Below are positions 1 through 59,520 of a stretch of DNA of 64,000 bases, in pieces. The translations under genes and the position numbers were made by a program. Under the pieces are notes generated by a model, which saw only the letters and a program-made list of their open reading frames with translations, was not told the DNA's origin and ran no database searches. The DNA lies in assembly GCA_963920705.1 (NCBI GenBank), contig OY987227.1, forward strand, positions 7,667,602 to 7,731,601, given 5' to 3'. The stretch comes from Odiellus spinosus. Taxonomy: Eukaryota > Arthropoda > Arachnida > Opiliones > Phalangiidae. How positions within the stretch are numbered: position 1 is the stretch's first letter; each line of letters starts with the position of its first letter.

Positions 1-1740
1 CGATAAATACACCCCCTGTAAGAACGAACGAACGATAAATACACCCCCTGTAAGAACGAACGAACGATAAATACACCCCCTGTAAGAACGAACGAACGAT
101 AAATACACCCCCTGTAAGAACGAAAGAACGATAAATACAAACCCCTGTAAAAACGAACGAACGATAAATACACCCCCTGTAAAAACAAACGAACGACAAA
201 TACACCCCCTGTAAGAACGAACGAACGATAAAAACACCCATTGTAAGAACGAACGAACGATAAATACACCCCCTGTAAGAACGAACGAACGATAAATACA
301 CCCCATGTAAGAACGAACGAACGATAAATACACCCCCTGTAAGAACGAACGAACGATAAATACACCCCCTGTAAGAACGAACGAACGATAAATGCACCCC
401 CCGTAAGAACGAACGAACGATAAATGCACCCCCCGTAAGAACGAACGAACGATAAATGCACCCCCCGTAAGAACGAACGAACGATAAATGCACCCCCTGT
501 AAAAACGAACGAACGATAAATACACCCCCTGTAAAAACGAACGAACGATAAATACACCCCCTGTAAAAACGAACGAACGATTACACCCCCTGTAAAAACG
601 AACGAACGATAAATACACCCCCTGTTAAAACGAACGAACGATAAATACACCCCCTGTAAAAACGAGCGAACGATAAATACACCCCCTGTAAAAACGAACG
701 AACGATAAATACACCCCCTGTAAGAACGAACGAGCGATAAATACACCCCCTGTAAGAACGAACGAACGATAAATACACCCCCTGTAAAAACGAACGAACG
801 ATAAATACACCCCCTGTAAAAACGAACGAACGATAAATACACCCCCTGTAAAAACGAACGAACGTAAATACACCTCCTGTAAAACGAACGAACGATAAAT
901 ACACCCCCTGTAAAAACGAACGAACGATAAATACACCCCCTTTAAGAACGAACGAACGATAAATACACCCCCTGTAAGAACGAACGAACGATAAATACAC
1001 CCCCTGTAAGAACGAACGAACGATAAATGCACCCCCTGTAAGAACGAACGAACGATAAATGCACCACCTGTAAGAACGAACGAACGATAAATGCACCCCC
1101 TGTAAAAACGAACGAACGATAAATACACCCCCTGTAAAAACGAACGAACGATAAATACACCCCCTGTAAAAACGAACTAACGATAAATACACCCCCTGTA
1201 AAAACGAACGAACGATAAACACACCCCCTGTAAAAACAAACGAACGATAAATACACCCCCTGTTAAAACGAACGAACGATAAATACACCTCCTGTAAAAA
1301 CGAACGAACGATAAATACACCCCCTGTAAGAACGAACGAACGATAAATACACCCCCTGTAAGAACGAACGAACGATAAATACACCCCCTGTAAGAACGAA
1401 CGAACGATCAATACACCCACTGTAAGAACGAACGAACGATAAATACACCCCCTGTAAAAACGAACGAACGATAAATACACCCCCTGTAAGAACGAACGAA
1501 CGATAAATACACCCCCTGTAAGAAAGAACGAACGATAAATACACCCCCTGTAAGAACGAACGAACGTAAATACACCCCCTGTAAGAACGACCGAACGACA
1601 AATACACCCCTTGTAAGAACGAACGAACGATAAATACACCCCCTGTAAGAACGAACGAACGATAAATACACCCCCTGTAAGAACGAACGAACGATAAATA
1701 CACCCCCTGTAAGAACGAACGAACGATAAATACACCCCCT

Positions 1741-2360
1741 GTAAGAACGAACGAACGATAAATGCACCCCCTGTAAGAACGAACGAACAATAAATTCACC
1801 CCCTGTAAGAACGAACGAACGATAAATGCACCCCCTGTAAAAACGAACGAACGATAAATACACCCCCTGTAAAAACGAACGAACGATAAATACACCCCCT
1901 GTAAAAACGAACGAACGATAAATACACCCCCTGTAAAAACGAACGAACGATAAACACACCCCCTGTAAAAACGAACGAACGATAAATACACCCCCTGTTA
2001 AAACGAACGAACGATAAATACACCCCCTGTAAAAACGAACGAACGATAAATACACCCCCTGTAAAAACGAACGAACGATAAATACACCCCCTGTAAAAAC
2101 GAACGAACGATAAATGCACCCCCTGTAAGAACGAACGAACAATAAATTCACCCCCTGTAAGAACGAACGAACGATAAATGCACCCCCTGTAAAAACGAAC
2201 GAACGATAAATACACCCCCTGTAAAAACGAACGAACGATAAATACACCCCCTGTAAAAACGAACGAACGATAAATACACCCCCTGTAAAAACGAACGAAC
2301 GATAAACACACCCCCTGTAAAAACGAACGAACGATAAATACACCCCCTGTTAAAACGAAC
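1741..2360. repeat. 352-bp higher-order repeat in the 32-bp satellite
   Basis: The rare variant CAATAAATTC occurs at 1788 and again at 2140, and the variant GTTAAAAC at 1997 and 2349. Both spacings are 352 bp, which is 11 units of 32 bp. Variants between them also match in order. An 11-unit block was therefore tandemly duplicated after its monomers had diverged. Confidence 0.85.
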
Positions 2361-2639
2361 GAACGATAAATACACCCCCTGTAAGAACGAACGAACGATA
2401 AATACACCCCCTGTAAGAACGAACGAACGATAAATACACCCCCTGTAAAAACGAACGAACGATAAATACACCCCCTGTAAAAACGAACGAACGATAAATA
2501 CACCCCCTGTAAAAACGAACGAACGATAAATACACCCCCTGTAAGAACGAACGAACGAACGATAAATACACCCCCTGTAAGAACGAACGAACGATAAATA
2601 CACCCCCTGTAAGAACGAACGAACGATAAATACACCCCC

Positions 2640-3160
2640 TGTAAGAATGAACGAACGATAAATACACCCCCTGTAAGAACGAACGATAAATGCACCCCCT
2701 GTAAGAACGAACGAACGATAAATACACCTCCTGTAAGAACGAACGAACGATAAATACACCCCGTGTAAGAATGAACGAACGATAAATACACCCCCTGTAA
2801 GAACGAACGATAAATGCACCCCCTGTAAGAACGAACGAACGATAAATACACCCCCTGTAAGAACGAACGAACGATAAATACACCCCCTGTAAGAATGAAT
2901 GAACGATAAATACACCCCCTGTAAGAACGAACGATAAATGCACCCCCTGTAAGAACGAACGAACGATAAATACACCTCCTGTAAGAAAGAACGAACGATA
3001 AATACACCCCCTGTAAGAACGAACGATAAATGCACCCCCTGTAAGAACGAACGATAAATGCACCCCCTGTAAGAACGAACGAACGATAAATACACCTCCT
3101 GTAAGAACGAACGAACGATAAATACACCCCGTGTAAGAATGAACGAACGATAAATACACC
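2640..3160. repeat. 124-bp higher-order repeat with 28-bp short units
   Basis: The variant GTAAGAATGAA recurs with GAATG at 2645, 2769 and 2893, spaced 124 bp apart. This equals four units less 4 bp, because each block holds one shortened 28-bp unit with a TGCACC core. Further less regular copies, including CACCTCCTGT and CACCCCGTGT variants, continue to about 3160. Confidence 0.75.
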
Positions 3161-3289
3161 CCCTGTAAAAACGAACGAACAATACACCCCCTGTAAAAAC
3201 GAACGAACTATAATTACACCCCGTGTAAAAACGAACGAACGATAAATACACCCCCTGTAAGAACGAACGAACGATAAATACACCCCCTA

Positions 3290-4820
3290 TAAGAACGAAC
3301 GAACGATAAATACACCCCCTGTAAGAACGAACGAACGATAAATACACCCCCTGTAAGAACGAACGAACGATAAATACACCCCCTGTAAAAACGAACGAAC
3401 GATAAATACACCCCCTGTAAGAACGAACGAACGAACGATAAATACACCCCCTGTAAGAACGAACGAACGATAAATACACCCCCTGTAAGAACGAACGAAC
3501 GATAAATACACCCCCTGTAAAAACGAACGAACGATAAATACACCCCCTGTAAAAACGCACGAACGATAAATACACCCCCTGTAAAAACGAACGAACGATA
3601 AATACACCCCCTGTAAGAACGAACGAACGATAAATACACCCCCTGTAAGAACGAACGAACGATAAATACACCACCTGTAAAAACGACCGAACGATAAATA
3701 CACACCCTGTAAAATCGAACGAACGATAAATACACCCCCTGTAAGAACGAACGAACGATAAATACACCCCCTGTAAGAACGAACGAACGATAAATACACC
3801 CCCTGTAAGAACGAACGAACGATAAATACACCCCCTGTAAGAACGAACGAACGATAAATACACCCCCTGTAAGAACGAACGAACGATAAATACACCCCCT
3901 GTAAGAACTAACGAACGATAAATACACCCCCTGTAAGAACGAACGAACGATAAATACACCCCCTGTAAAAACGAACGAACGAACGATAAATACACCCCCT
4001 GTAAGAACGAACGAACGATAAATACACCCCCTGTAAGAACGAACGAACGATAAATACACCCCCTGTAAAAACGAACGAACGATAAATACACCCCCTGTAA
4101 AAACGCACGAACGATAAATACACCCCCTGTAAAAACGAACGAACGATAAATACACCCCCTGTAAGAACGAACGAACGATAAATACACCCCCTGTAAGAAC
4201 GAACGAACGATAAATACACCCCCTGTAAAAACGAACGAACGATAAATACACCCCCTGTAAGAACGAACGAACGAACGATAAATACACCCCCTGTAAGAAC
4301 GAACGAACGATAAATACACCCCCTGTAAGAACGAACGAACGATAAATACACCCCCTGTAAAAACGAACGAACGATAAATACACCCCCTGTAAAAACGCAC
4401 GAACGATAAATACACCCCCTGTAAAAACGAACGAACGATAAATACACCCCCTGTAAGAACGAACGAACGATAAATACACCCCCTGTAAGAACGAACGAAC
4501 GATAAATACACCACCTGTAAAAACGACCGAACGATAAATACACACCCTGTAAAATCGAACGAACGATAAATACACCCCCTGTAAGAACGAACGAACGATA
4601 AATACACCCCCTGTAAGAACGAACGAACGATAAATACACCCCCTGTAAGAACGAACGAACGATAAATACACCCCCTGTAAGAACGAACGAACGATAAATA
4701 CACCCCCTGTAAGAACGAACGAACGATAAATACACCCCCTGTAAGAACTAACGAACGATAAATACACCCCCTGTAAGAACGAACGAACGATAAATACACC
4801 CCCTGTAAAAACGAACGAAC
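3290..4820. repeat. 840-bp segmental duplication in the 32-bp satellite
   Basis: About 690 bp from 3290-3980 is repeated at 4130-4820 with an offset of exactly 840 bp. Private variants shared by both copies include GCACGAACG (3557 and 4397), CCACCTGTAA (3671 and 4511), AAAATCGAAC (3711 and 4551) and GAACTAACG (3905 and 4745). The offset is 26 units plus 8 bp, explained by two extra GAAC tetramers in the block. A partial third copy of the GCACGAACG marker sits at 4105, which points to repeated unequal exchange. Confidence 0.85.
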
Positions 4821-5335
4821 GATAAATACACCCGCTGTAAAAACGAACGAATGATAAATACACCCCCTGTAAAAACGAACGAACGATAAATACACCCCCT
4901 GTAAAAACGAACGAACGATAAATACACCCCCTGTAAAAACGAACGAACGATAAATACACCCCCTGTAAAAACGAACGAACGATAAATACACCCCCTGTAA
5001 AAACGAACGAACGATAATTACACCCCTTGTAAAAACGAACGAACGATAAATACACCCCTTGTAAGAACGAACGAACGATAAATACACCCCCTGTAAGAAC
5101 GAACGAACGATAAATACACCCCCTGTAAGAACGAACGAACGATAAATACACCCCCTGTAAGAACGAACGAACGATAAATACACCCCCTGTAAAAACGAAC
5201 GAACGATAAATACACCCCCTGTAAGAACGAACGAACGAACGATAAATACACCCCCTGTAAGAACGAACGAACGATAAATACACCCCCTGTAAGAACGAAC
5301 GAACGATAAATACACCCCCTGTAAGAACGAACGAT

Positions 5336-5584
5336 CGTTAAGTATAACTCCTGTAAAAATGAATGAACACCCCCTGTAAAAAAAATAAATAATAATTACA
5401 CCCCCTGTAAAAAAAATAATAAATACACCCCCTGTAAAAAAAATTATAAATACACCCCCTGTAAAAAAATAAATAATAAATACACCCCCTGTAAAAAAAA
5501 TAAATAATAAATACACCTCCTGTAAAAAAAATAAATAATAAATACACCCCCTGTAAAATAAATAATCAAAAATTTAACAAGGGG
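5336..5584. repeat. Degraded satellite transition zone
   Basis: The GAACGAAC part of the 32-bp unit is replaced by A-rich AAAAAAATAAATAA sequence while the ATAAATACACCCCCTGTAA core persists for about seven copies. The final stretch (5543-5584) runs from the core into AATAATCAAAAATTTAACAA and GGGGCACCCC. This is the reverse complement of the spacers found at 6735, 7485 and 8490. It links the 32-bp and 22-bp satellites. Confidence 0.85.
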
Positions 5585-6738
5585 CACCCCTTTTCTGAAA
5601 ATAAAACACCCCTTTTCTGAAAATAAAACACCCCTTTTCTGAAAATAAAACACCCCTTTTCTGAAAATAAAACACCCCTTTTTTGAAAATAAAACACCCC
5701 TTTTTTGAAAATAAAACACCCCTTTTTTGAAAATAAAACACCCCTTTTTTGAAAAGAAAACACCCCTTTTTTGAAAAGAAAACACCCCTTTTTTGAAAAT
5801 AAAACACCCCTTTTTTTAAAATAAAACACCCCTTTTTTTAAAATAAAACACCCCTTTTTTGAAATTAAAACACCCCTTTTTTGAAAATAAAACACTCCTT
5901 TTTTGAAAATAAAACACCCCTTTTTTTGGAAATAAAACACCCCTTTTTTGGAAAATTAAACACCCCTTTTTTGGAAAATTAAACACCCCTTTTTGGAAAA
6001 TAAAACACCCCTTTTTTGAAAATAATACACCCCTTTTTTGAAAATAATACACCCTTTTTTGAAAATGAACCACCCCTTTTTTAAAAATGAACCACCCCTT
6101 TTTTGAAAATAAAACACCCCTTTTTTGAAAATAAAACACCCCTTTTCTGAAAATAAAACACCCCTTTTTTGAAAATAAAACACCCCTTTTTTGAAAATAA
6201 AACACCCCTTTTTTGAAAATAAAACACTCCTTTTTTGAAAATGAAACACTCCTTTTTTGAAAATAAAACGTCCCTTTTTTGGAAAATAAAACGTCCCTTT
6301 TTTGGAAAATAAAACACCCCTTTTTTGAAAATAAAACACCCCTTTTTTGAAAATAAAACACCCCTTTTTTGAAAATAAAACACCCCTTTTTTGAAAATAA
6401 AACACCCCTTTTTTGAAAATAAAACGTCCCTTTTTTGAAAATAAAACACCTCTTTTTGGAAAATAAAACACCCATTTTTTAGAAAATAAAACACCCTTTT
6501 TTGAAAATGAACCACCCCTTTTTTTGAAAATAAACCACCCCTTTTTTTGAAAATAAACCACCCCTTTTTTGAATATAAAACACCCCTATTTTGAATATAA
6601 AACACCCCTTTTTTGAATATAAAACACCCCTTTTTTGAATATAAAACACCCCTTTTTTGAAAATTAAACACCCCTTTTTTGAAAATATAACACCCCTTTA
6701 TGAAAATAAAACACCCCTTTATGAAAATAAAACAGCCC
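5585..6738. repeat. 22-bp satellite array 1 (about 53 copies)
   Basis: The unit is CACCCCTTTTTTGAAAATAAAA with 20-23 bp length variants caused by T-run and A-run changes. Subtypes are ordered along the array: TTTTCTG at the left, GAAAAGAAAAC and AAATTAAAC blocks further in, then GAATATAAAAC near 6570-6660. Open minus-strand frames across this array follow from period and composition. The first array is bracketed by inverted spacer copies at 5543-5584 and 6735-6775. Confidence 0.95.
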
Positions 6739-6945
6739 TTGTATAATTTTTGATTATTTATTTACAGGGGGTGTATTTATTTTTTTTTACAGGAGGTACC
6801 ACTTTTAAAAATTTTGATTATTTACAGGGGGTGTATTTTTTTTTTTTTTTTTTTTTTTTACAAGGGGTACCCCCTGTAAAATTTTTGATTATTTATTTTA
6901 CAAGGGGTGTATTTATTTTTTTTAAAAGGGTAGCCCTTTTTTGGA
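6735..6945 (+). repeat. Hairpin spacer, about three degenerate copies
   Basis: The module reads CCCTTGTATAATTTTTGATT, then ATTTATTTACAGGGGGTGTA, a T-run and ACAAGGGGTACC. It repeats with starts near 6738, 6800 and 6878. The second copy has a run of about 25 T (6836-6859). Its ends are complementary, so each module can fold on itself. Its CAGGGGGTGTATTTA core is the reverse complement of the 32-bp satellite core. Confidence 0.85.
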
Positions 6946-7488
6946 AAATAAAACACCTCTTTTTGGAAAATAAAACACCCCTTTTTTGAAAATAAAACAC
7001 TCCTTTTTTGAAAATAAAACGTCCCTTTTTTGAAAATAAAACACCTCTTTTTGGAAAATAAAACACCCATTTTTTAGAAAATAAAACACCCTTTTTTGAA
7101 AATGAACCACCCCTTTTTTTGAAAATAAACCACCCTTTTTTTGAAAATGAACCACCCCTTTTTTTGAATATAAAACACCCCTTTTTTGAATATAAAACAC
7201 CCCTTTTTTGAATATAAAACACCCCTTTTTGAATATAAAACACCCCTTTTTTGAATATAAAACACCCCTTTTTTTAATATAAAACACCCCTTTTTTGAAA
7301 ATTAAACACCCCTTTTTTTGAAAATTAAACACCCCTTTTTTGAAAATAAAACACCCCTTTTTTGAAAATAAAACACCCTTTTTTGAAAATAAAACACCCC
7401 TTTTTTGAAAATAAAACACCCCTTTTTTAAAATAAAACACCCTTTTTTTGAAAATATAACACCCCTTTATGAAAATAAAACACCCCTT
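6945..7488. repeat. 22-bp satellite array 2 (about 25 copies)
   Basis: Same unit as array 1. The variant order around 7021-7120 (GTCCC, CACCTCTTTTTGG, CACCCATTTTTTAG, GAAAATGAACCACC) copies the order at 6425-6545, an offset of 596 bp. Both arrays end in GAAAATATAACACCCC, then CTTTATG, then the spacer. Array 2 plus its spacer is therefore a duplicate of the right half of array 1, with later local length change. Confidence 0.93.
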
Positions 7489-7636
7489 GTATAATTTTTG
7501 ATTATTTATTTTACAGGGGGTGTATTTATTTATTTTTTACAAGAGGTACCACTTTTAAAAATTTTGATTATTTATTTAACAAGGGGTGTATTTATTTTTT
7601 TTACAAGGGTAGCCCTTTTTGGAAAATTTAACACCC
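7485..7636 (+). repeat. Hairpin spacer, two copies
   Basis: Two copies of the spacer module (from about 7485 and 7547), with GATTATTTATTTTACAGGGG and CAAGAGGTACC or CAAGGGTAGCCC ends. They separate the 22-bp array from the 18-bp array. The order matches the spacer at 6735-6945, minus one module. Confidence 0.83.
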
Positions 7637-7639
7637 CTT

Positions 7640-8456
7640 TTTTGAAAATAAAATACCCTTTGAAAATAAAATACCCTTTGAAAATAAAATACCCTTTGAA
7701 AATAAAATACCCTTTGAAAATAAAATACCCTTTGAAAATAAAATACCCTTTGAAAATAAAATACCCTTTGAAAATAAAATACCCTTTGAAAATAAAATAC
7801 CCTTTGAAAATAAAATACCCTTTGAAAATAAAATACCCTTTGAAAATAAAATACCCTTTGAAAATAAAATACCCTTTGAAAATAAAATACCCTTTGAAAA
7901 TAAAATACCCTTTGAAAATAAAATACCCTTTGAAAATAAAATACCCTTTGAAAATAAAATACCCTTTGAAAATAAAATACCCTTTGAAAATAAGATACCC
8001 TTTGAAAATAAGATACCCTTTGAAAATAAAATACCCTTTGAAAATAAAATACCCTTTGAAAATAAAATACCCTTTGAAAATAAAATACCCTTTGAAAATA
8101 AAATACCCTTTGAAAATAAAATACCCTTTGAAAATAAAATACCCTTTGAAAATAAAATACCCTTTGAAAATAAAATACCCTTTGAAAATAAAATACCCTT
8201 TGAAAATAAAATACCCTTTGAAAATAAAATACCCTTTGAAAATAAAATACCCTTTGAAAATAAAATACCCTTTGAAAATAAAATACCCTTTGAAAATAAA
8301 ATACCCTTTGAAAATAAAATACCCTTTGAAAATAAAATACCCTTTGAAAATAAAATACCCTTTGAAAATAAAATACCCTTTGAAAATAAAATACCCTTTG
8401 AAAATAAAATACCCTTTGAAAATAAAATACCCTTTGAAAATAAAATACCCTTTAGT
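7640..8456. repeat. 18-bp satellite array (45 copies)
   Basis: The unit is ACCCTTTGAAAATAAAAT. The first CCC of the unit is at 7656 and the last at 8448, exactly 44 periods of 18 bp with no net indel. Only two single-base variants stand out, AAGATACCC near 7993 and 8011. The unit looks like the 22-bp unit with about 4 bp lost from the C/T run. The plus-strand frame reads as a KIKYPL hexapeptide repeat only because 18 is a multiple of 3. This is the most homogeneous array of the complex and so probably the youngest expansion. Confidence 0.97.
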
Positions 8457-8695
8457 TTAAAGGGGGTGTATTTATTTTTTTTACAAGGGGTACCCCTTGT
8501 AAAATTTTTGATTATTTATTTTACAGGGGGTGTATTTATTTTTTTACAAGGGGTACTCCATGTAAAATTTTTGATTATTTAGTTTAAAGGGGGTGTATTT
8601 ATTTTTTTTACAAGGGTACCCCTTGTAAAATGTTTGATTATTTATTTTACAGGGGGTGTATTTATTTATTTATTTTTTTACAAGGGGTACGCTTT
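8457..8695 (+). repeat. Hairpin spacer, three to four tandem modules
   Basis: Modules of about 69 bp contain TACCCCTTGTAAAATTTTTG, GATTATTTATTTTACAGGGG, GTGTATTTATTT and TTTACAAGGGGTAC. The copies join head to tail, so the end of one and the start of the next form palindromes. The one at 8479-8504 is a perfect 26-bp palindrome centred on a GGTACC KpnI site (half TTTTACAAGGGGT). The satellite complex ends here. Confidence 0.88.
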
Positions 8696-12219: not shown

Positions 12220-15200
12220 TTCAATCCTCCGTTCAGCTGGCTAAACCCTCCGTTGAGCTGGCTAAACCCTCCGTTGAGCTGGCTAAACCCTCCGTTGAGC
12301 TGGCTAAACCCTCCGTTGAGCTGGCTAAACCCTCCGTTGAGCTGGCTAAACCCTCCGTTGAGTTGGCTAAACCCTCCGTTGAGCTGGCTAAACCCTCCGT
12401 TGAGCTGGCTAAACCCTCCGTTGAGCTGGCTAAACCCTCCGTTGAGCTGGCTAAACCCTCCGTTGAGCTGGCTAAACCCTCCGTTGAGTTGGCTAAACCC
12501 TCCGTTGAGCTGGCTAAACCCTCCGTTGAGCTGGCTAAACCCTCCGTTGAGCTGGCTAAACCCTCCGTTGAGCTGGCTAAACCCTCCGTTGAGCTGGCTA
12601 AACCCTCCGTTGAGCTGGCTAAACCCTCCGTTGAGCTGGCTAAACCCTCCGTTGAGCTGGCTAAACCCTCCGTTGAGCTGGCTAAACCCTCCGTTGAGCT
12701 GGCTAAACCCTCCGTTGAGCTGGCTAAACCCTCCGTTGAGCTGGCTAAACCCTCCGTTGAGCTGGCTAAACCCTCCGTTGAGCTGGCTAAACCCTCCGTT
12801 GAGCTGGCTAAACCCTCCGTTGAGCTGGCTAAACCCTCCGTTGAGCTGGCTAAACCCTCCGTTGAGCTGGCTAAACCCTCCGTTGAGCTGGCTAAACCCT
12901 CCGTTGAGCTGGCTAAACCCTCCGTTGAGCTGGCTAAACCCTCCGTTGAGCTGGCTAAAACCTCCGTTGAGCTGGCTAAAACCTCCGTTGAGCTGGCTAA
13001 AACCTCCGTTGAGCTGGCTAAACCCTCCGTTGAGCTGGCTAAACCCTCCGTTGAGCTGGCTAAACCCTCCGTTGAGCTGGCTAAACCCTCCGTTGAGCTG
13101 GCTAAACCCTCCGTTGAGCTGGCTAAACCCTCCGTTGAGCTGGCTAAACCCTCCGTTGAGCTGGCTAAACCCTCCGTTGAGCTGGCTAAACCCTCCGTTG
13201 AGCTGGCTAAACCCTCCGTTGAGCTGGCTAAACCCTCCGTTGAGCTGGCTAAACCCTCCGTTGAGCTGGCTAAACCCTCCGTTGAGCTGGCTAAACCCTC
13301 CGTTGAGCTGGCTAAACCCTCCGTTGAGCTGGCTAAACCCTCCGTTGAGCTGGCTAAACCCTCCGTTGAGCTGGCTAAACCCTCCGTTGAGCTGGCTAAA
13401 CCCTCCGTTGAGCTGGCTAAACCCTCCGTTGAGCTGGCTAAACCCTCCGTTGAGCTGGCTAAACCCTCCGTTGAGCTGGCTAAACCCTCCGTTGAGCTGG
13501 CTAAACCCTCCGTTGAGCTGGCTAAACCCTCCGTTGAGCTGGCTAAACCCTCCGTTGAGCTGGCTAAACCCTCCGTTGAGCTGGCTAAACCCTCCGTTGA
13601 GCTGGCTAAACCCTCCGTTGAGCTGGCTAAACCCTCCGTTGAGCTGGCTAAACCCTCCGTTGAGCTGGCTAAACCCTCCGTTGAGCTGGCTAAACCCTCC
13701 GTTGAGCTGGCTAAACCCTCCGTTGAGCTGGCTAAACCCTCCGTTGAGCTGGCTAAACCCTCCGTTGAGCTGGCTAAACCCTCCGTTGAGCTGGCTAAAC
13801 CCTCCGTTGAGCTGGCTAAACCCTCCGTTGAGCTGGCTAAACCCTCCGTTGAGCTGGCTAAACCCTCCGTTGAGCTGGCTAAACCCTCCGTTGAGCTGGC
13901 TAAACCCTCCGTTGAGCTGGCTAAACCCTCCGTTGAGCTGGCTAAACCCTCCGTTGAGCTGGCTAAACCCTCCGTTGAGCTGGCTAAACCCTCCGTTGAG
14001 CTGGCTAAACCCTCCGTTGAGCTGGCTAAACCCTCCGTTGAGCTGGCTAAACCCTCCGTTGAGCTGGCTAAACCCTCCGTTGAGCTGGCTAAACCCTCCG
14101 TTGAGCTGGCTAAACCCTCCGTTGAGCTGGCTAAACCCTCCGTTGAGCTGGCTAAACCCTCCGTTGAGCTGGCTAAACCCTCCGTTGAGCTGGCTAAACC
14201 CTCCGTTGAGCTGGCTAAACCCTCCGTTGAGCTGGCTAAACCCTCCGTTGAGCTGGCTAAACCCTCCGTTGAGCTGGCTAAACCCTCCGTTGAGCTGGCT
14301 AAACCCTCCGTTGAGCTGGCTAAACCCTCCGTTGAGCTGGCTAAACCCTCCGTTGAGCTGGCTAAACCCTCCGTTGAGCTGGCTAAACCCTCCGTTGAGC
14401 TGGCTAAACCCTCCGTTGAGCTGGCTAAACCCTCCGTTGAGCTGGCTAAACCCTCCGTTGAGCTGGCTAAACCCTCCGTTGAGCTGGCTAAACCCTCCGT
14501 TGAGCTGGCTAAACCCTCCGTTGAGCTGGCTAAACCCTCCGTTGAGCTGGCTAAACCCTCCGTTGAGCTGGCTAAACCCTCCGTTGAGCTGGCTAAACCC
14601 TCCGTTGAGCTGGCTAAACCCTCCGTTGAGCTGGCTAAACCCTCCGTTGAGCTGGCTAAACCCTCCGTTGAGCTGGCTAAACCCTCCGTTGAGCTGGCTA
14701 AACCCTTCGTTGAGCTGGCTAAACCCTCCGTTGAGCTGGCTAAACCCTCCGTTGAGCTGGCTGAAAAATCCGTTGAGCTGGCTAAACCCTCCGTTGAGCT
14801 GGCTGAAAAATCCGTTGAGCTGGCTGAAAAATCCGTTGAGCTGGCTGAAAAATCCGTTGAGCTGGCTGAAAAATCCGTTGAGCTGGCTGAAAAATCCGTT
14901 GAGCTGGCTGAAAAATCCGTTGAGCTGGCTGAAAAATCCGTTGAGCTGGCTGAAAAATCCGTTGAGCTGGCTGAAAAATCCGTTGAGCTGGCTGAAAAAT
15001 CCGTTGAGCTGGCTGAAAAATCCGTTGAGCTGGCTGAAAAATCCGTTGAGCTGGCTGAAAAATCCGTTGAGCTGGCTGAAAAATCCGTTGAGCTGGCTGA
15101 AAAATCCGTTGAGCTGGCTGAAAAATCCGTTGAGCTGGCTGAAAAATCCGTTGAGCTGGCTGAAAAATCCGTTGAGCTGGCTGAAAAATCCGTTGAGCTG

Positions 15201-15583
15201 GCTGAAAAATCCGTTGAGCTGGCTGAAAAATCCGTTGAGCTGGCTGAAAAATCCGTTGAGCTGGCTGAAAAATCCGTTGAGCTGGCTGAAAAATCCGTTG
15301 AGCTGGCTGAAAAATCCGTTGAGCTGGCTGAAAAAGCCGTTGAGCTGGCTGAAAAAGCCGTTGAGCTGGCTGAAAAAGCCGTTGAGCTGGCTGAAAAAGC
15401 CGTTGAGCTGGCTGAAAAAGCCGTTGAGCTGGCTGAAAAATCCGTTGAGCTGGCTGAAAAATCCGTTGAGCTGGCTGAAAAATCCGTTGAGCTGGCTGAA
15501 AAATCCGTTGAGCTGGCTGAAAAATCCGTTGAGCGGGCTGAAAAATCCGTTGAGCGGGCTGAAAAATCCGTTGAGCTGTCTCA
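12220..15583. repeat. 21-bp satellite array (160 copies, two subfamilies)
   Basis: The unit is GTTGAGCTGGCTAAACCCTCC. The first GTT is at 12231 and the last at 15570, exactly 159 periods of 21 bp, so there is no net indel in 3.3 kb. From 12231 to about 14760 the unit carries CTAAACCCTCC; from about 14762 it carries CTGAAAAATCC. One stray CTAAACCC unit sits at the junction (14780-14790). CTGAAAAAGCC variants form a block of five (15331-15430). Other variants are AAAACCTCC (three in a row near 12957-13010), GAGTTGGCT (12361 and 12487), CCCTTCG (14703) and GAGCGGGCT in the last copies. Frames stay open on both strands because 21 is a multiple of 3. Confidence 0.97.
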
Positions 15584-17400
15584 ACGCGACATTTAAACAA
15601 GGAATCGATAAAAAATATCGATGCTGATAGGTAAAATTGAGAAACAAATATTTTTTGACAGTTTTCTTATTTATTTTTCACATTTAATTAACACACTTAC
15701 CTATAGAGAATGTATACAAAACCCTGACATACCCCCAAATTAGGCTCACAGTTTTTCTTTTTTTTTTTTTTTTTTCTCGAAACATTGGACTGTAACGCGT
15801 CAAAATATTTTTTTTTTATCATCAGTTATACATTTTTACTTTCTCAATAGGTCCGTTTTATTTTTCTTAATTATAACGCCACTTTAGTTTGTATATTTTA
15901 TTATTTTTTATCTTTCTTCTTTTAATTAACAACATTTAGATTTGTCACTTCTTAGTATTGTTTTTTTTTTTTTTTTTTCTTTATATATTGACCACGGTTG
16001 ACTCGAGCGAGCTGGTCAGTTCGGTCCGGTTTTAAAGTTACATTCACACATTCACGCGCCTTACTTTTGGTCGCATTTTTCTTCGGAAGAAATTAGAAAT
16101 AAAGTCAACAAAACTACTAATAGTATATATCCATTTATCTGTCCTTTTTGTTGAATTTTAAGTGTTTTTTCACTTAAATTGATGTCCATTTTAATAATAT
16201 ATTTACTTTTATATATATATATATAATATAGTCTTTTTATATCAGTTTATCGAAGTTCATATATTACAAGTTTAGAGAAAATTATGTTATCGGACAAAAT
16301 GTTTTGAGATTTTTGTTTTGTTTTGTATATGCCACAAATTGTGCTCAAGAGCGGCTAATAAACTCGGGTTTCCTTTACTTTCGTCTCCCGCCAAAGTTTT
16401 TTATTTTTTTTTTTTTTTTTTTTTGATAATGTTTAATTTTTTTTCTTTATTTGGTCATTTTTTTAGACTTTTCTTATATTTGGAATGCTATTCAACCTCC
16501 TGGATTTTATAATTATTTAAAAATTTTAATTTTTCGCCGCTTTGTTTAGTTTGAATTCTTCGGTTCTTCGTCGCCAAATGGGAAAAGACCAGCTGAATAT
16601 ATTTCAAAACATTAATTTGAAAATGAAAGTTTAAAATAATTTTTTAAATTTCAGAATTTATATATAGACTTCAGCCAGAATATTTAAGAGAAAATATTGT
16701 CAATTTTCTAACACTTTTTTTTTTTCAAGTATCTGGCAGACGACTTTACCTATTCTAAAACTCGAAAAATATTTGAAATTTTCTTACGTATTTTAAGATA
16801 ATTTTGCGGGATTTTATATTTATTTATTTTGTCAAACAGCCTAATAGGTATTTAATTTTCTCTCGGGAAACATATTTTTAATAACACTTACTTTTTTTTT
16901 TAGTTTTTTTATATATACCTAATTATGATATTTTTCAATTTTTATGGTTTTTTTTTTTTAGATTTTTTTGTTATTAGAAAAAATAATTTTTAAAAGACTC
17001 GTGGCATTTTCGAATACGATCTTTCGCTTCGTATCATTAATTTTTAAACCTAAACAAAAATACGATATATCTACACTTAAATAGAACTCCACAGCTTTGT
17101 TGTATGTATTTATATTATTTACAATTTTATATCAAGAAAAATTAACGGCCTATGCAAATAAGAAAGGGTTGTTCGACTAATTCCAAAAATTATGGAATTA
17201 AAAATTAATATCAGAAAAAACAAAAATGATGGTTTTCAACTTAAAATTTAAATTTCATTAAAATAGCCTAAAGTATTAAAAAATATTATGACTTAGTTCT
17301 TTAAGCTAGAGGAGCCGATGAAAAATACAACTCCCAGATTATATCCGATACCCCTAGAAAATCGAGCCAGGATTTGTATGGCGAGGTTTCAAATTGTCCA
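15584..17400. other. AT-rich single-copy sequence with poly-T tracts
   Basis: Long T runs occur at 15753-15774, 15960-15979 and 16397-16423, and a TA run at 16214-16226. No target-site duplications were evident around them. No coding region is recognised. Confidence 0.45.
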
Positions 17401-32803: not shown

Positions 32804-33470
32804 AATGAAAATTAAAACTTTTCTAAATTTCTAAGTGTTTAAAATTCGCGATCTTGGTGAGAGATTAATTTAACAAGGCCCGAATCGAGTCAGGATACGT
32901 GTCGACTTTAATGCGGGTACTAAATCATCCGACGTAATTCCCACCGCGAGGGGGAGCCACGAGTCAAATGAGAGAATGCAAAATGAGCTCCAAAGAAAGG
33001 TTTGCTATTTTTTTATCCGTAGGGAGGGTTTTCAGCTCGTATAAATGCTAAGATTACACATTTCTTGAGGGTAAAATGAATCGTAGGTATATATCTAGAA
33101 ATAAAAGGCGCTGGGATAGCCTTGGAAGATAGTGAAAACTCAGCTTGATTATTATGACTAGGGTTATAACTTTGAAAGCGACACGCAGTCTCTGGCTGCG
33201 TTTTGGCGTGTTTGGCAATTTTTCAAAGTTTTTTTTTTTTTTTTTTTTTTTTTTTCCTTTTTCCGTTTGTAATATACGTTACGTGTTACGTGTGGTAAAA
33301 TTTTACTTCTTTAAATGAGTTTATTTTAATATTATATAAGACGTTTTGGCCTCAAGCTGTCTGCTAAACAATTATATTCTTTAATTTAAAAACTAGACTT
33401 ATAATAAAAAAATATCTTTCTAGTTTTCTATCATTTAAAGTTACTTTATCTTTTATTTATCACGAAAACC
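32804..33470. other. Single-copy sequence with a long poly-T tract
   Basis: A T-run of about 25 nt lies at 33231-33256, the kind of signature left by a minus-strand retroposon tail. I could not find a flanking duplication. Otherwise nothing recognised. Confidence 0.4.
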
Positions 33471-33653
33471 AACTAGTCTTTGAATACCATTTTTATAATG
33501 GAAATCAATTGGTCTTTGAATATCATTTTTATCATGGAAACCAATTGGTCTTTGAATACCATTTTTATCATGGAAGCCAATTGGTCTTTGAATACCATTT
33601 TTATCATGGAAACCAATTGGTCTTCGAATTCCATTTTTATCACGCAAACCAAT
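33471..33653. repeat. 36-bp minisatellite, left block (about five copies)
   Basis: The unit is GGTCTTTGAATACCATTTTT followed by ATCATGGAAACCAATT. CCAATTGG joins successive units and is itself palindromic. Left-block units carry ATCATGGAA, against ATCACTAAA in the right block. Frames stay open since 36 is a multiple of 3; not regarded as coding. Confidence 0.93.
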
Positions 33654-33849
33654 CCACCACTTTGCTCTTCCATTGTGCGCATGCCCGCGCTCGAAACGCT
33701 TACTAGTGGCGAAAAAAAGAACGTTCACTTGGTGAGGCGCGCGTAGTATCCCGCGTATTACCCCATGCAGATTTTTTTCCCTGCCATTTTCACCAAGTGA
33801 AAGTTCGCCCTATGCCGCTATGGCGCCCCAAGTAATGGCTAAATGGTGT
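33654..33849. mobile_element. CACCA-ended hairpin element, copy 1 (196 bp)
   Basis: This element splits the 36-bp array at CCAAT|TGG. Its ends are CCACCACTTTGC and AAATGGTGT, imperfect inverted repeats. It contains CATGCCCGCGCTCGAAACGC, TTACTAGTGGCGAAAAAAAG, and an internal hairpin with stems TTCACTTGGTGA and TCACCAAGTGAA. The same element recurs at 41016-41200. AT at the junction appears on both sides (CCAAT before, ATTGG after), so the target duplication is about 2 bp. Confidence 0.85.
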
Positions 33850-34128
33850 ATTGGTCTTTGAATACCATTTTTATCACGCAAACCAATTGGTCTTTGAATA
33901 CCATTTTTATCACTAAAACCAATTGGTCTTTGAATACCATTTTTATCACTAAAACCAATTGGTCTTTGAATACCATTTTTATCACTAAAACCAATTGGTC
34001 TTTGAATACCATATTTATCACTAAAACCAATTGGTCTTTGAATACCATTTTTATCACTAAAACCAATTGGTCTTTGAATACCATTTTTATCACTAAAACC
34101 AATTGGTCTTTGAATACCGTTTTCTTTC
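33850..34128. repeat. 36-bp minisatellite, right block (about eight copies)
   Basis: GAATACCATTTTTATCACTA followed by AAACCAATTGGTCTTT repeats at exactly 36 bp with very few changes (one ATATTTATC variant near 34013). It continues the left block across the inserted element. The right block has mostly ATCACTAAA units and the left ATCATGGAA. Confidence 0.95.
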
Positions 34129-58913: not shown

Positions 58914-59520
58914 ATAACTGATAGGACAACCATTCGGTTTTTGCAAAACACTAACTGATAGGACAAACATTCGGTTTTTGCAAAACACTAACTGATAGGA
59001 CAACCATTCGGTTTTTGCAAAACACTAACTGGGAAAGCAATTCGGTTTTTGCAAAACACTAACTGGGAAAGCAATTCGGTTTTTGCAAAACACTAACTTT
59101 GAAAGCAATTCGGTTTTTGCAAAACACTAACTGATAGGACAACCACTCGGTTTTTGCAAAACACTAACTGATAGGACAACCACTCGGTTTTTGCAAAGCA
59201 CTAACTGATAGGACAACCATTCGGTTTTTGCAAAACACTAACTGGGAAAGCAATTCGGTTTTTGCAAAACACTAACTGGGAAAGCAATTCGGTTTTTGCA
59301 AAACACTAACTGGGAAAGCAATTTGGTTTTTGCAAAACACTAACTGTGACAACAATCCGGTTTTTGCAAAACACTAACTGTGACAACAATCCGGTTTTTG
59401 CAAAACACTAACTGTGACAACAATCCGGTTTTTGCAAAACACTAACTGTGACAACAATCCGGTTTCTGCAAAACACTAACTGGGACAATTAAAAATTAAG
59501 TTTGGCAAAATACTGAGACA
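58914..59520. repeat. 34/37-bp minisatellite with a 213-bp higher-order unit
   Basis: All units share CGGTTTTTGCAAAACACTAA. Three variants differ in the rest: CTGATAGGACAACCATT (37 bp), CTGGGAAAGCAATT (34 bp) and CTGTGACAACAATC (34 bp). The order is 3x37, 3x34, 3x37, 3x34, then 4x34 of the third type and a degraded last unit. The 3+3 block is 213 bp: unit starts at 58916, 59129 and 59342 are exactly 213 apart. Confidence 0.93.

Follow-up and report, generated by a model that had tools for sequence, protein, structure and literature searches.

A mirror-image locus of short tandem repeats in Odiellus spinosus and its relation to a 65-bp satellite superfamily

The three tandem arrays found in a stretch of 64,000 nucleotides of Odiellus spinosus DNA (contig OY987227.1, positions 7,667,602 to 7,731,601, here referred to as the window) make up one arm of a mirror-image locus of 17 kb with the order 18-22-32 | 32-22-18. 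The locus is probably a composite satellite locus derived from a superfamily with a unit of about 65 bp, in which an inverted duplication would have been followed by a blockwise divergence of the arms. New features are the concentric mirrored order, the single polarity of related loci and 18-mers consisting of a constant box and a variable linker.

The arrays of the window and the mirror

A sequence-only reading had described three arrays with periods of 32, 22 and 18 bp, a common core and transitional copies at 5336-5584. TRF and direct reading confirmed both periods and coordinates (Table 1), the core ATAAA(T)ACACCCC was found in the arrays, and the transitional copies are present. By TRF, period 32 was called at 1-5556 (174.7 copies, 94% matches), where direct reading identified 24-31-bp transitional units from 5366 on, period 22 spans 5585-7488 (86.4 copies, 85% matches), and 63-66-bp units were called at 6736-6930, 7482-7619 and 8451-8695. 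These inverted 65-bp units stand between the blocks, and elsewhere in the genome their joints are 26-bp palindromes. For exact-length units of the right arm, the mean divergence from the consensus is 2.7% for the 32-mer (n=209), 3.4% for the 22-mer (n=40) and 0.25% for the 18-mer, of which 42 of 44 units are identical. Scanning the window for Rfam families and tRNA genes gave no match.

Table 1. Features of the right arm in the window
Feature	Positions	Strand	Description
32-bp array	1..5336	+	ACACCCCCTGTAA[A/G]AACGAACGAACGATAAAT; right arm of the mirror; runs 3.2 kb past the left end of the window to C3:7,664,397
Tandem segmental duplication within the 32-bp array	3294..4822	+	689 bp exact, offset 840
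Transition zone	5337..5584	+	truncated 32-mer (TGAATGAACACCCC), then 24-31-bp units, then right half of the 65-bp unit, ending ...ACAAGGGG
22-bp array	5585..6732	+	CACCCCTTTTTTGAAAATAAAA; edge copies CACCCCTTTATGAAAATAAAA at 6689-6732
65-bp-type units amid 22-mers	6733..6930	-	core on the - strand; joined at the C tract
Second 22-bp block	6931..7481	+	repeats part of the variants of the first block
65-bp-type units	7482..7609	-	inside the 161-bp query 7480-7640
18-bp array	7641..8453	+	TACCCTTTGAAAATAAAA; 45.2 copies, 99% matches (TRF)
63-65-bp units, 3.5 copies	8451..8695	-	outer right edge of the locus; left edge without counterpart

The window truncates the locus, since the 32-mer array continues to the left (stretch L016) and is followed there by the entire series in inverted orientation. 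The full order is 18-22-(24-31)-32 | 32-(24-31)-22-18, with a hairpin centre (TTACA-CCCCC-TGTAA) at C3:7,664,397, just left of the window. At this centre 55 of 60 positions are complementary, and 56 of 60 at a second locus on C3 (6.78M); in two array stretches sampled away from the centre, 1 kb from this locus and 1.6 kb from L042, the highest value was 24 of 60. Folded as DNA, the genomic centre sequences give stems of 34 pairs (z -13.9) and 35 pairs (z -15.8). The two sequenced centres sit at different phases of the repeat unit.

In the left arm, homologous junctions were identified in inverted orientation, and junction J2 is identical at 63 of 68 columns between the arms. A truncated 32-mer, TGAA[CT]GAACACCCC, is present in three copies in the locus, each at a 32/24-31 boundary and with both arms represented; however, a J1-like truncated 32-mer also terminates the C3:6.78M locus, so that this truncation may recur by chance. 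The arms carry their own variants, such as G-type 22-mers on the left, are unequal in length, and match each other at 84-88% in the top BLAST rows. These differences and the second sequenced centre on C3 make it extremely improbable that the mirror is a palindromic chimera of the assembly, even though a near-identical inverted pair is present on C14 (L004/L005, 99.94% over 3.1 kb, 40 kb apart).

Unit lengths and kinship with the 65-bp unit

The 18-mer had been read as the 22-mer minus about 4 bp, and this step is visible in the blocks of the left arm. There, 46 units of the form GAAAATAAAA-GACCCCTTTTTT (two of them TTTTAT) are followed by 18 units of the form GAAAATAAAA-GACCCCGC, with a C->G change common to both. 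Block by block, ladders of 23->22->18 were identified in the left arm and of 17->18 at C4:5.96M. In the 18-mers, the GAAAATAAAA box of 10 bp is mostly constant and the remaining 8 bp vary from block to block. At block borders 38 linker substitutions were counted versus 15 in the box (p 8e-5), a figure which is biased because units were located via their box and excursions were counted twice. Units outside the stated lengths were dropped from the divergence, box/linker, network and permutation analyses. At junctions of 22-type units with core or 65-bp units, the switch falls at the C tract in eight of eight cases as judged by eye, of which perhaps four are independent; the 18/65 junction at 8451 falls outside the C tract.

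The unit of about 65 bp carries 14-bp inverted ends (TACCCCTTGTAAAA...TTTTACAAGGGG) and occurs genome-wide with palindromic joints; with the 161-bp query, relatives were identified on at least nine contigs (40 of 1383 candidates scored). With an HMM of this unit, E<1e-3 was reached by 210 of 261 rows in the right 32-mers, by 15 of 35 rows in the left 32-mers and by 20 of 27 rows in the left 24-31-bp zone. Together with shuffle tests (0/100) this ruled out chance low complexity as the source of the likeness among the 32-, 30- and 65-bp units. Membership of the three arrays in one superfamily was mostly upheld in that the 32-mer and the 24-31-bp units appear to derive from the 65-bp unit and the ladders connect the shorter lengths, but at the sequence level the 22-mer is weakly linked to the 65/32 units, and the case for this link is made by in-register junctions and by co-occurrence at other loci.

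Neither the 22- and 18-bp arrays (best E 3.0) nor the 17-mers of C4 (best E 0.056) gave a significant HMM row. For the 22-mer consensus, the number of dinucleotide shuffles out of 100 that did equally well was 2 against the 65-bp unit, 2 against the 32-mer and 5 against the 30-bp unit, while the 18-mer consensus was not significantly similar to the 65- and 32-bp units (19 and 54 of 100 shuffles as good). Control units of the region (21, 34, 32x and 26 bp) were unlike the 22-mer or the 65-bp unit, with 14 to 100 of 100 shuffles scoring equally well. Since two control pairs reached low values (4/100 for a 24-bp unit against the 65-bp unit, 1/100 for the L013 26-bp unit against the left 18-mer), values near 0.02 mean little. 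A 14-mer near C1:16.2M was not significantly related by the shuffle test.

The weak consensus similarity and the lack of an HMM match would be expected if 65/32 and 22/18 were two unrelated families, with a convergent C tract and A-rich tail, that came to be neighbours. By minimum distance, some permuted families also match the real closeness: 3/200 for the 18-mer and 2/200 for the 22-mer against the core set (n=59, unit length 15-36 bp, taken from C3, C5 and C7), and 7/200 and 9/200 against the C4 17-mers. However, by mean-minimum distance none of 200 permuted families was as close to the core as the 18- and 22-mers, under a lenient null which breaks homopolymer runs. In addition, the C4 17-mers differ from a core-type unit by a single edit (0/200 permuted families equal) and grade into 18-mers, and in-register junctions are present on two chromosomes. 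Separate origins are decidedly unlikely.

Related loci in the genome

Exact 28-nt matches to the 22-mer number 1663 and 1775 on the two strands, and those to a marker of a sister 32-mer (32') number 1566 and 985. The 32-mer GAACGAACG has 338 exact matches with heavily skewed strands (322/16); 301 of them were located, all at two C3 loci, and this unit looks specific to C3. For the exact 18-mer pattern, 55 matches were identified on C4 (C4:11,068,400-11,069,677), all in one direction, compared with 40 at the window locus.

These counts bear on the earlier proposal that stages of satellite birth lie side by side here, with the 32-, 22- and 18-mers on one path. Arrays that arose one from another in place and were caught as successive stages would account for the stepwise ladders in the left arm and on C4, for the near uniformity of the 18-bp array and for the C3 location of the GAACGAACG matches. 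However, birth in place is largely refuted for the 22-mer by the thousands of 22-mer and sister 32-mer matches elsewhere; the 18-mer is found on C4 as well, and a similar order is seen again on C1. In the monomer network, the path from the 32- to the 22-mer passes through 24-31-bp-type, C5, C4 and 18-bp units, and a linear 32->22->18 birth was ruled out by the genome-wide counts. Birth in place as such is highly improbable. Through the abundance of the 22-mer, the sister 32-mer and the 18-mer elsewhere, the independent closest relatives that the sequence-only reading had named as speaking against it were in part found. Related mirrored loci elsewhere in the genome look like a recurring architecture more than like three freshly born satellites.

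Co-occurrence at other loci, which had been expected, was seen in part: arrays lie together at three loci, but all three never do so there. C1:34.07M carries 32', 17- and 22-bp units, with the 22-mers outside the core and in the same polarity, as read at its edges alone; C4:5.96M carries 65-, 17- and 18-bp units; and C3:6.78M, the second mirror centre, carries 24-31- and 32-bp units, with no 22- or 18-mers in the portion read. At all four short-unit loci seen on both strands (window, C3:6.78M, C1:34.07M and C1:32.71M), the polarity is - on the left and + on the right, while at C5:9.0M only the + strand occurs among the matches listed. For C1:32.71M the mirrored arrangement comes from match coordinates alone, and that the two C1 loci are mirrored like the window locus is partly shown.

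This conservation of order and polarity would be explained if the loci were copies of one dispersed foldback-type element, the arms being giant terminal inverted repeats of graded-length tandem units that spread as a block. In Drosophila FB elements, the arms hold tandem repeats of graded length, and here too the arms are long, inverted and made up of tandem repeats. The outer-22/inner-core order is alike on C1 and C3, each of which holds several loci, and the 22-mer strands are near balance. The Tetris element likewise has inverted arms of tandem repeats, and its arm repeat can seed satellites (PMC4079207). Unlike in foldbacks, the arms abut directly at both centres read, with no middle domain, and the locus, of a kind measuring 13-17 kb, has unlike ends (18-mers on the left, 65-bp units on the right) and no flanking target-site duplication that was seen by eye at this one locus. 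In addition, the core units vary by locus (32 versus 17+32'), and the strands are unbalanced for the 32'-mer and the 32-mer. A dispersed foldback element is possible but unlikely.

Satellite-rich surroundings, dyad symmetry and 65-bp matches extending over about 100 kb on C1 could also point to a centromeric satellite at the edge of the C3 centromere. In the layered expansions of centromeric satellites, related repeat layers lie on both sides of a core, as they do here; unlike in those, the layers of this locus are inverted and differ in period. A centromeric satellite would have a single main locus on each chromosome, but the repeats occupy at least two distinct sites on C3 and more on C1, across many Mb, and a centromeric identity is very unlikely.

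Proposed history and precedents

For the composite origin from the 65-bp superfamily, we infer a direction of change, a fold-back step and slippage. Parts of the 65-bp unit would have been amplified into 24-31-bp units, one of which, once it had gained GAACGA-type repeats, would have given the 32-mer. An outer second branch would comprise the 17-, 22/23- and 18-mers, of which the 22/23- and 18-mers mostly retain the box. The inverted duplication may have arisen by fold-back or by template switching where the unit forms a short hairpin, leaving two diverging arms with the same junctions, which slippage and unequal exchange may have altered blockwise into arms with specific variants and unequal lengths.

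The closest precedents are the foldback elements and the macro-dyad satellites of Tribolium. The latter were described for T. madens, T. freemani and T. castaneum with an element of about 110 bp, and array-level mirror symmetry was reported there from Tribolium only (PMC13081366). As in these macro-dyads, subarrays of opposite orientation meet at an inversion point, two satellites stem from one element and transition zones are present (PMC13081366); multi-kb opposite subarrays about one inversion site were found at the window locus and at C3:6.78M. Unlike in Tribolium, the units here measure 17-65 bp, several families form a concentric stack, and the two sequenced centres differ instead of sharing a conserved inversion site (PMC13081366). 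C1 and C3 each carry several loci that lie apart. The locus looks like a case of array-level mirror symmetry outside Tribolium, and is a base-by-base record of changes in satellite unit length.

For the 65-bp unit itself, a likeness to MITE-derived satellites is seen in the inverted ends common to the 65-bp, 50-bp (C7) and 48-bp (C274) units, which differ in their interiors and are joined at TA (PMC12628747). The 26-bp palindrome had no match in the viral and prokaryotic contig sets. As a separate observation, a gag-like zinc knuckle under the Pfam cut-off was noticed in the C1/C7 array flank.

Since similar layers recur at other loci, it is testable whether order, polarity and the 10-bp box reflect mechanism, a mobile element or selection. 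A speculative and quite improbable view is that dyad symmetry itself is kept, in palindromic joints (26 bp, intact) at the level of the 65-bp unit and, with shorter units, in a whole array that is palindromic with the C-rich strand outward. Selection would in that case act on array structure together with a putative bound box, and the arrays might serve, for instance, in chromatin organisation or as a replication-fork site. A real 65-bp unit of C13 with both palindromic joints folds with a z of -7.8, and the 32-, 22- and 18-bp units with z values of -1.5, +1.6 and +1.2.

Structure of the mirror-image locus on contig C3

The window corresponds to C3:7,667,602-7,731,601, and its 32-, 22- and 18-bp arrays make up one side of a composite satellite of about 17 kb that is built as a mirror image; the left arm and centre lie just left of the window. 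The sequence-only reading had described 32-, 22- and 18-bp arrays at positions 1..8695, with transitional copies. This description is good at the sequence level. TRF and direct reading confirmed arrays and transitional copies and also identified 63-66-bp units between and after the three arrays, which had not been named as such. The left arm was read in L016 (10 kb left of the window), where the 32-mers switch to the window's orientation at position 6796.

Coordinates of satellite units and flanks (L-numbers are stretches read outside the window)
Feature	Position	Orientation, copies or likeness	Basis
18-bp units	L016 855-3258	inverted relative to window	reading
22-bp units	L016 3260-4798	inverted relative to window	reading
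24-31-bp then 32-bp units	L016 about 4800-6795	inverted relative to window	reading
21-bp satellite CCTCCGTTGAGCTGGCTAAAC	window 12226-15585	160 copies at 99%	TRF
36-bp-unit tandem array	window 33456-34123		TRF
34-bp-unit tandem array	window 58924-59488		TRF
24-bp satellite	L010 1063-8005 (C3:7.588-7.596M)	289 copies at 99%	
26-bp satellite TTTCGAAACGCGTGCCGAGTTTTTGT	L013 707-1483	30 copies	
50-bp tandem units	L038 1446-2297 (C7)	inverted ends as in 65-bp unit, interior different	
48-bp tandem units	L031 2093-7484 (C274)	inverted ends as in 65-bp unit, interior different	
Left flanks of 65-bp arrays	L019 4765-8176 (C1) vs L029 1598-3239 (C7)	~1.5 kb common, six pieces, 91-100%	

The centre at C3:7,664,397, TTTTTACA-CCCCC-TGTAAGAA, is an extended form of the small hairpin found in each unit. 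Here, 55/60 positions are complementary; in two sampled array stretches away from this centre, the best centres reach 24. Folding of its 77 real bases as DNA gave 34 pairs (z -13.9). The arms are unequal, with 32-mers extending ~8.5 kb to the right and 1.1-1.4 kb to the left. The junction from 24-31-bp units over half a 65-bp unit and GGGGCACCCC to 22/23-mers is identical between the arms in 63/68 columns, part of which is 65-bp-unit sequence common elsewhere. The border between 32-bp and 24-31-bp units carries a truncated 32-mer in both arms (3/3 occurrences within the locus); this alone is no proof of a shared arm history, because the locus at C3:6.78M (L045) also ends in a similar truncation. 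The two arms have a common history and diverged afterwards: the 22-mers are mostly GACCCC-type on the left and CACCCC-type on the right, and the best BLAST rows between the arms show 84-88% identity.

From the centre outward, the left arm consists of 13 23-mers, mixed 22- and 23-mers, 46 G-type 22-mers, 18 copies of GAAAATAAAA-GACCCCGC, then CACCCCGC, a disturbed stretch and CGCGCTTC types. Since a C->G change is present on both sides of the 22/18 border, the comparison suggests that the period changed within a single lineage. The right-arm 18-mer TACCCTTT differs from those of the left arm and matches C4. A recent duplication in the locus (689 bp exact at offset 840) was also identified. Divergence is 0.25% in the right 18-, 0.8% in the left 22-, 1.2% in the outer left 18-, 2.7% in the right 32-, 3.0% in the inner left 18-, 3.4% in the right 22- and 4.0% in the left 32-bp array. 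Array uniformity yields no clean order of ages, and short units may also be homogenised faster.

Mirrored and one-way arrays elsewhere

Exact patterns were counted over the genome (443 Mb, 286 contigs, with telomere-type CCTAA repeats suggestive of an insect) as two strand counts, with reversed-pattern controls of 0/0. The GAACGAACG 32-mer has 322 + 16 matches, 153 + 7 of them in the window locus and at least 100, among the matches listed, at C3:6.781-6.787M; a further 33 + 8 were read in L043 and L042 (C3:6.78M). Of its 338 matches, 301 were located, all on C3. The 22-mer occurs 1663 + 1775 times (14 + 6 in the window locus), and the GACACG marker of 32', a sister 32-mer, 1566 + 985 times; for both, the positions given are those among the matches listed. 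The 18-mer (95 + 0) has 40 matches in the window locus and 55 at C4:11.07M.

At C3:6.78M, the order is 24-31(-), 32(-), a centre at 6,781,335 (56/60 complementary; 35 pairs, z -15.8) and 32(+), with C3:6,781,501-6,788,500 known from the match list alone. At the ends read, 22- or 18-bp units are absent and the locus gives way to unlike DNA. C1:34.07M, read at its edges, has 22(-), two 32'(-) and two or three 17-18-mers(-) on the left, and 17-mers(+) (core-motif spacing of 17 in 19/24), 32'(+) and 22(+) on the right. Its arms share a CGACACGATAAAT junction (86/103 columns), and additional interleaved 32' and 22 blocks lie outside them. By match coordinates only, C1:32.71M has 7 markers of 32' on the minus strand followed by 11 on the plus strand, and a 22-mer begins on the base directly after a 32' marker. 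The minus-then-plus order was found at 4/4 mirrored loci, including the window locus. No mirror was seen at C4:11.07M (all plus, as far as seen) or C5:9.0M (plus only among the matches listed).

The local series of satellite births proposed in the sequence-only reading was not borne out, since the array parts and, as far as seen, the overall plan recur elsewhere. The observations are symmetry, shared junctions and uniform blocks whose units are set apart from those of other blocks by one or a few changes. In the proposed mechanism, fold-back at hairpins would produce inverted duplications, and slippage and unequal exchange would alter the blocks. Mirror satellites at the array level have been described for Tribolium, documented only there according to the authors in 2026 (PMC13081366). 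Foldback arms with tandem repeats can seed satellites (PMC4079207), and the birth of satellites from TEs and MITEs has been reviewed (PMC12628747). In the parts of these three papers covered by a limited literature search, no case was found of multiple satellite families stacked concentrically as a mirror image across several loci.

At C4:5.96M, irregular 13-18-mers, 17-mers TACGCCCCTTGGAAAAA, 18-mers CACGCTTT and outermost CACCCTTT follow outward from 65-bp units. C4:11.07M, with both ends read (L040, L041), is a long 18-mer ladder of homogeneous blocks, in which eight different 8-bp linkers stand beside a mostly constant GAAAATAAAA. Over these loci and the window locus together, the exact box GAAAATAAAA was found in 14/18 repeated 18-mer types, with 14 different 8-bp linkers, a count in which unit detection favours the box. 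The C4:11.07M ladder ends near a relic GGGGTACCCC palindrome.

Relatedness of the unit families

Relatives of the 65-bp unit were identified on at least nine contigs (40 of 1383 candidates scored). Their arrays occur in both polarities (C14: L005 plus, L004 minus), and polarity flips twice at C1:16.19M. L004 (C14:19.012M) and L005 (C14:18.972M) carry inverted 3.1-kb 65-bp-type arrays, 40 kb apart with 99.94% identity, which represent either a very recent inverted duplication or an assembly artefact.

A 65-position HMM built from 71 units of other loci detected (E<1e-3) 210/261 rows of right 32-mers, 15/35 of left 32-mers and 20/27 of the left 24-31-bp zone, and zero rows in the 22- or 18-bp arrays. 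Consensus shuffles were as good in 0/100 each for 32-65, 30-65, 18-22, C4 18-22 and C4 17-65, in 2/100 for 22-65 and 22-32, 5/100 for 22-30, 19/100 for 18-65 and 54/100 for 18-32, with two unrelated control pairs reaching 1/100 and 4/100. The five paths examined through a network built from 201 unit types needed at most 4 edits per step, but the 32-to-22 path passed via C5 units, C4 units and left-arm 18-mers. When the 18- and 22-mers were compared with 59 core-type units (15-36 bp), permuted families were as close by mean-minimum distance in 0/200 for both 18 and 22, and by minimum distance in 3/200 (18) and 2/200 (22). Together, shuffles, HMM, network and permuted families indicate, by sequence comparison, that the 32/24-31/65 units are one family and the 22/18 units another chain. 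Their union into the single superfamily of the sequence-only reading is likely, mainly by register and co-occurrence.

Neighbouring satellites and flanks

The L010 24-bp satellite, left of the locus, is not similar to the 22-mer (29/100 shuffles as good); compared to the 65-bp unit, 4/100 were as good. For the L013 26-bp satellite and the left 18-mer, the value was 1/100. The flank shared by the C1 and C7 65-bp arrays contains a minus-strand ORF in which a gag-type zinc knuckle scores weakly (E 0.006, under the cut-off). Both arrays may thus border on the end of a retroelement. Short copies similar to the 21-bp satellite of the window were found in L012 and L013, left of the locus.
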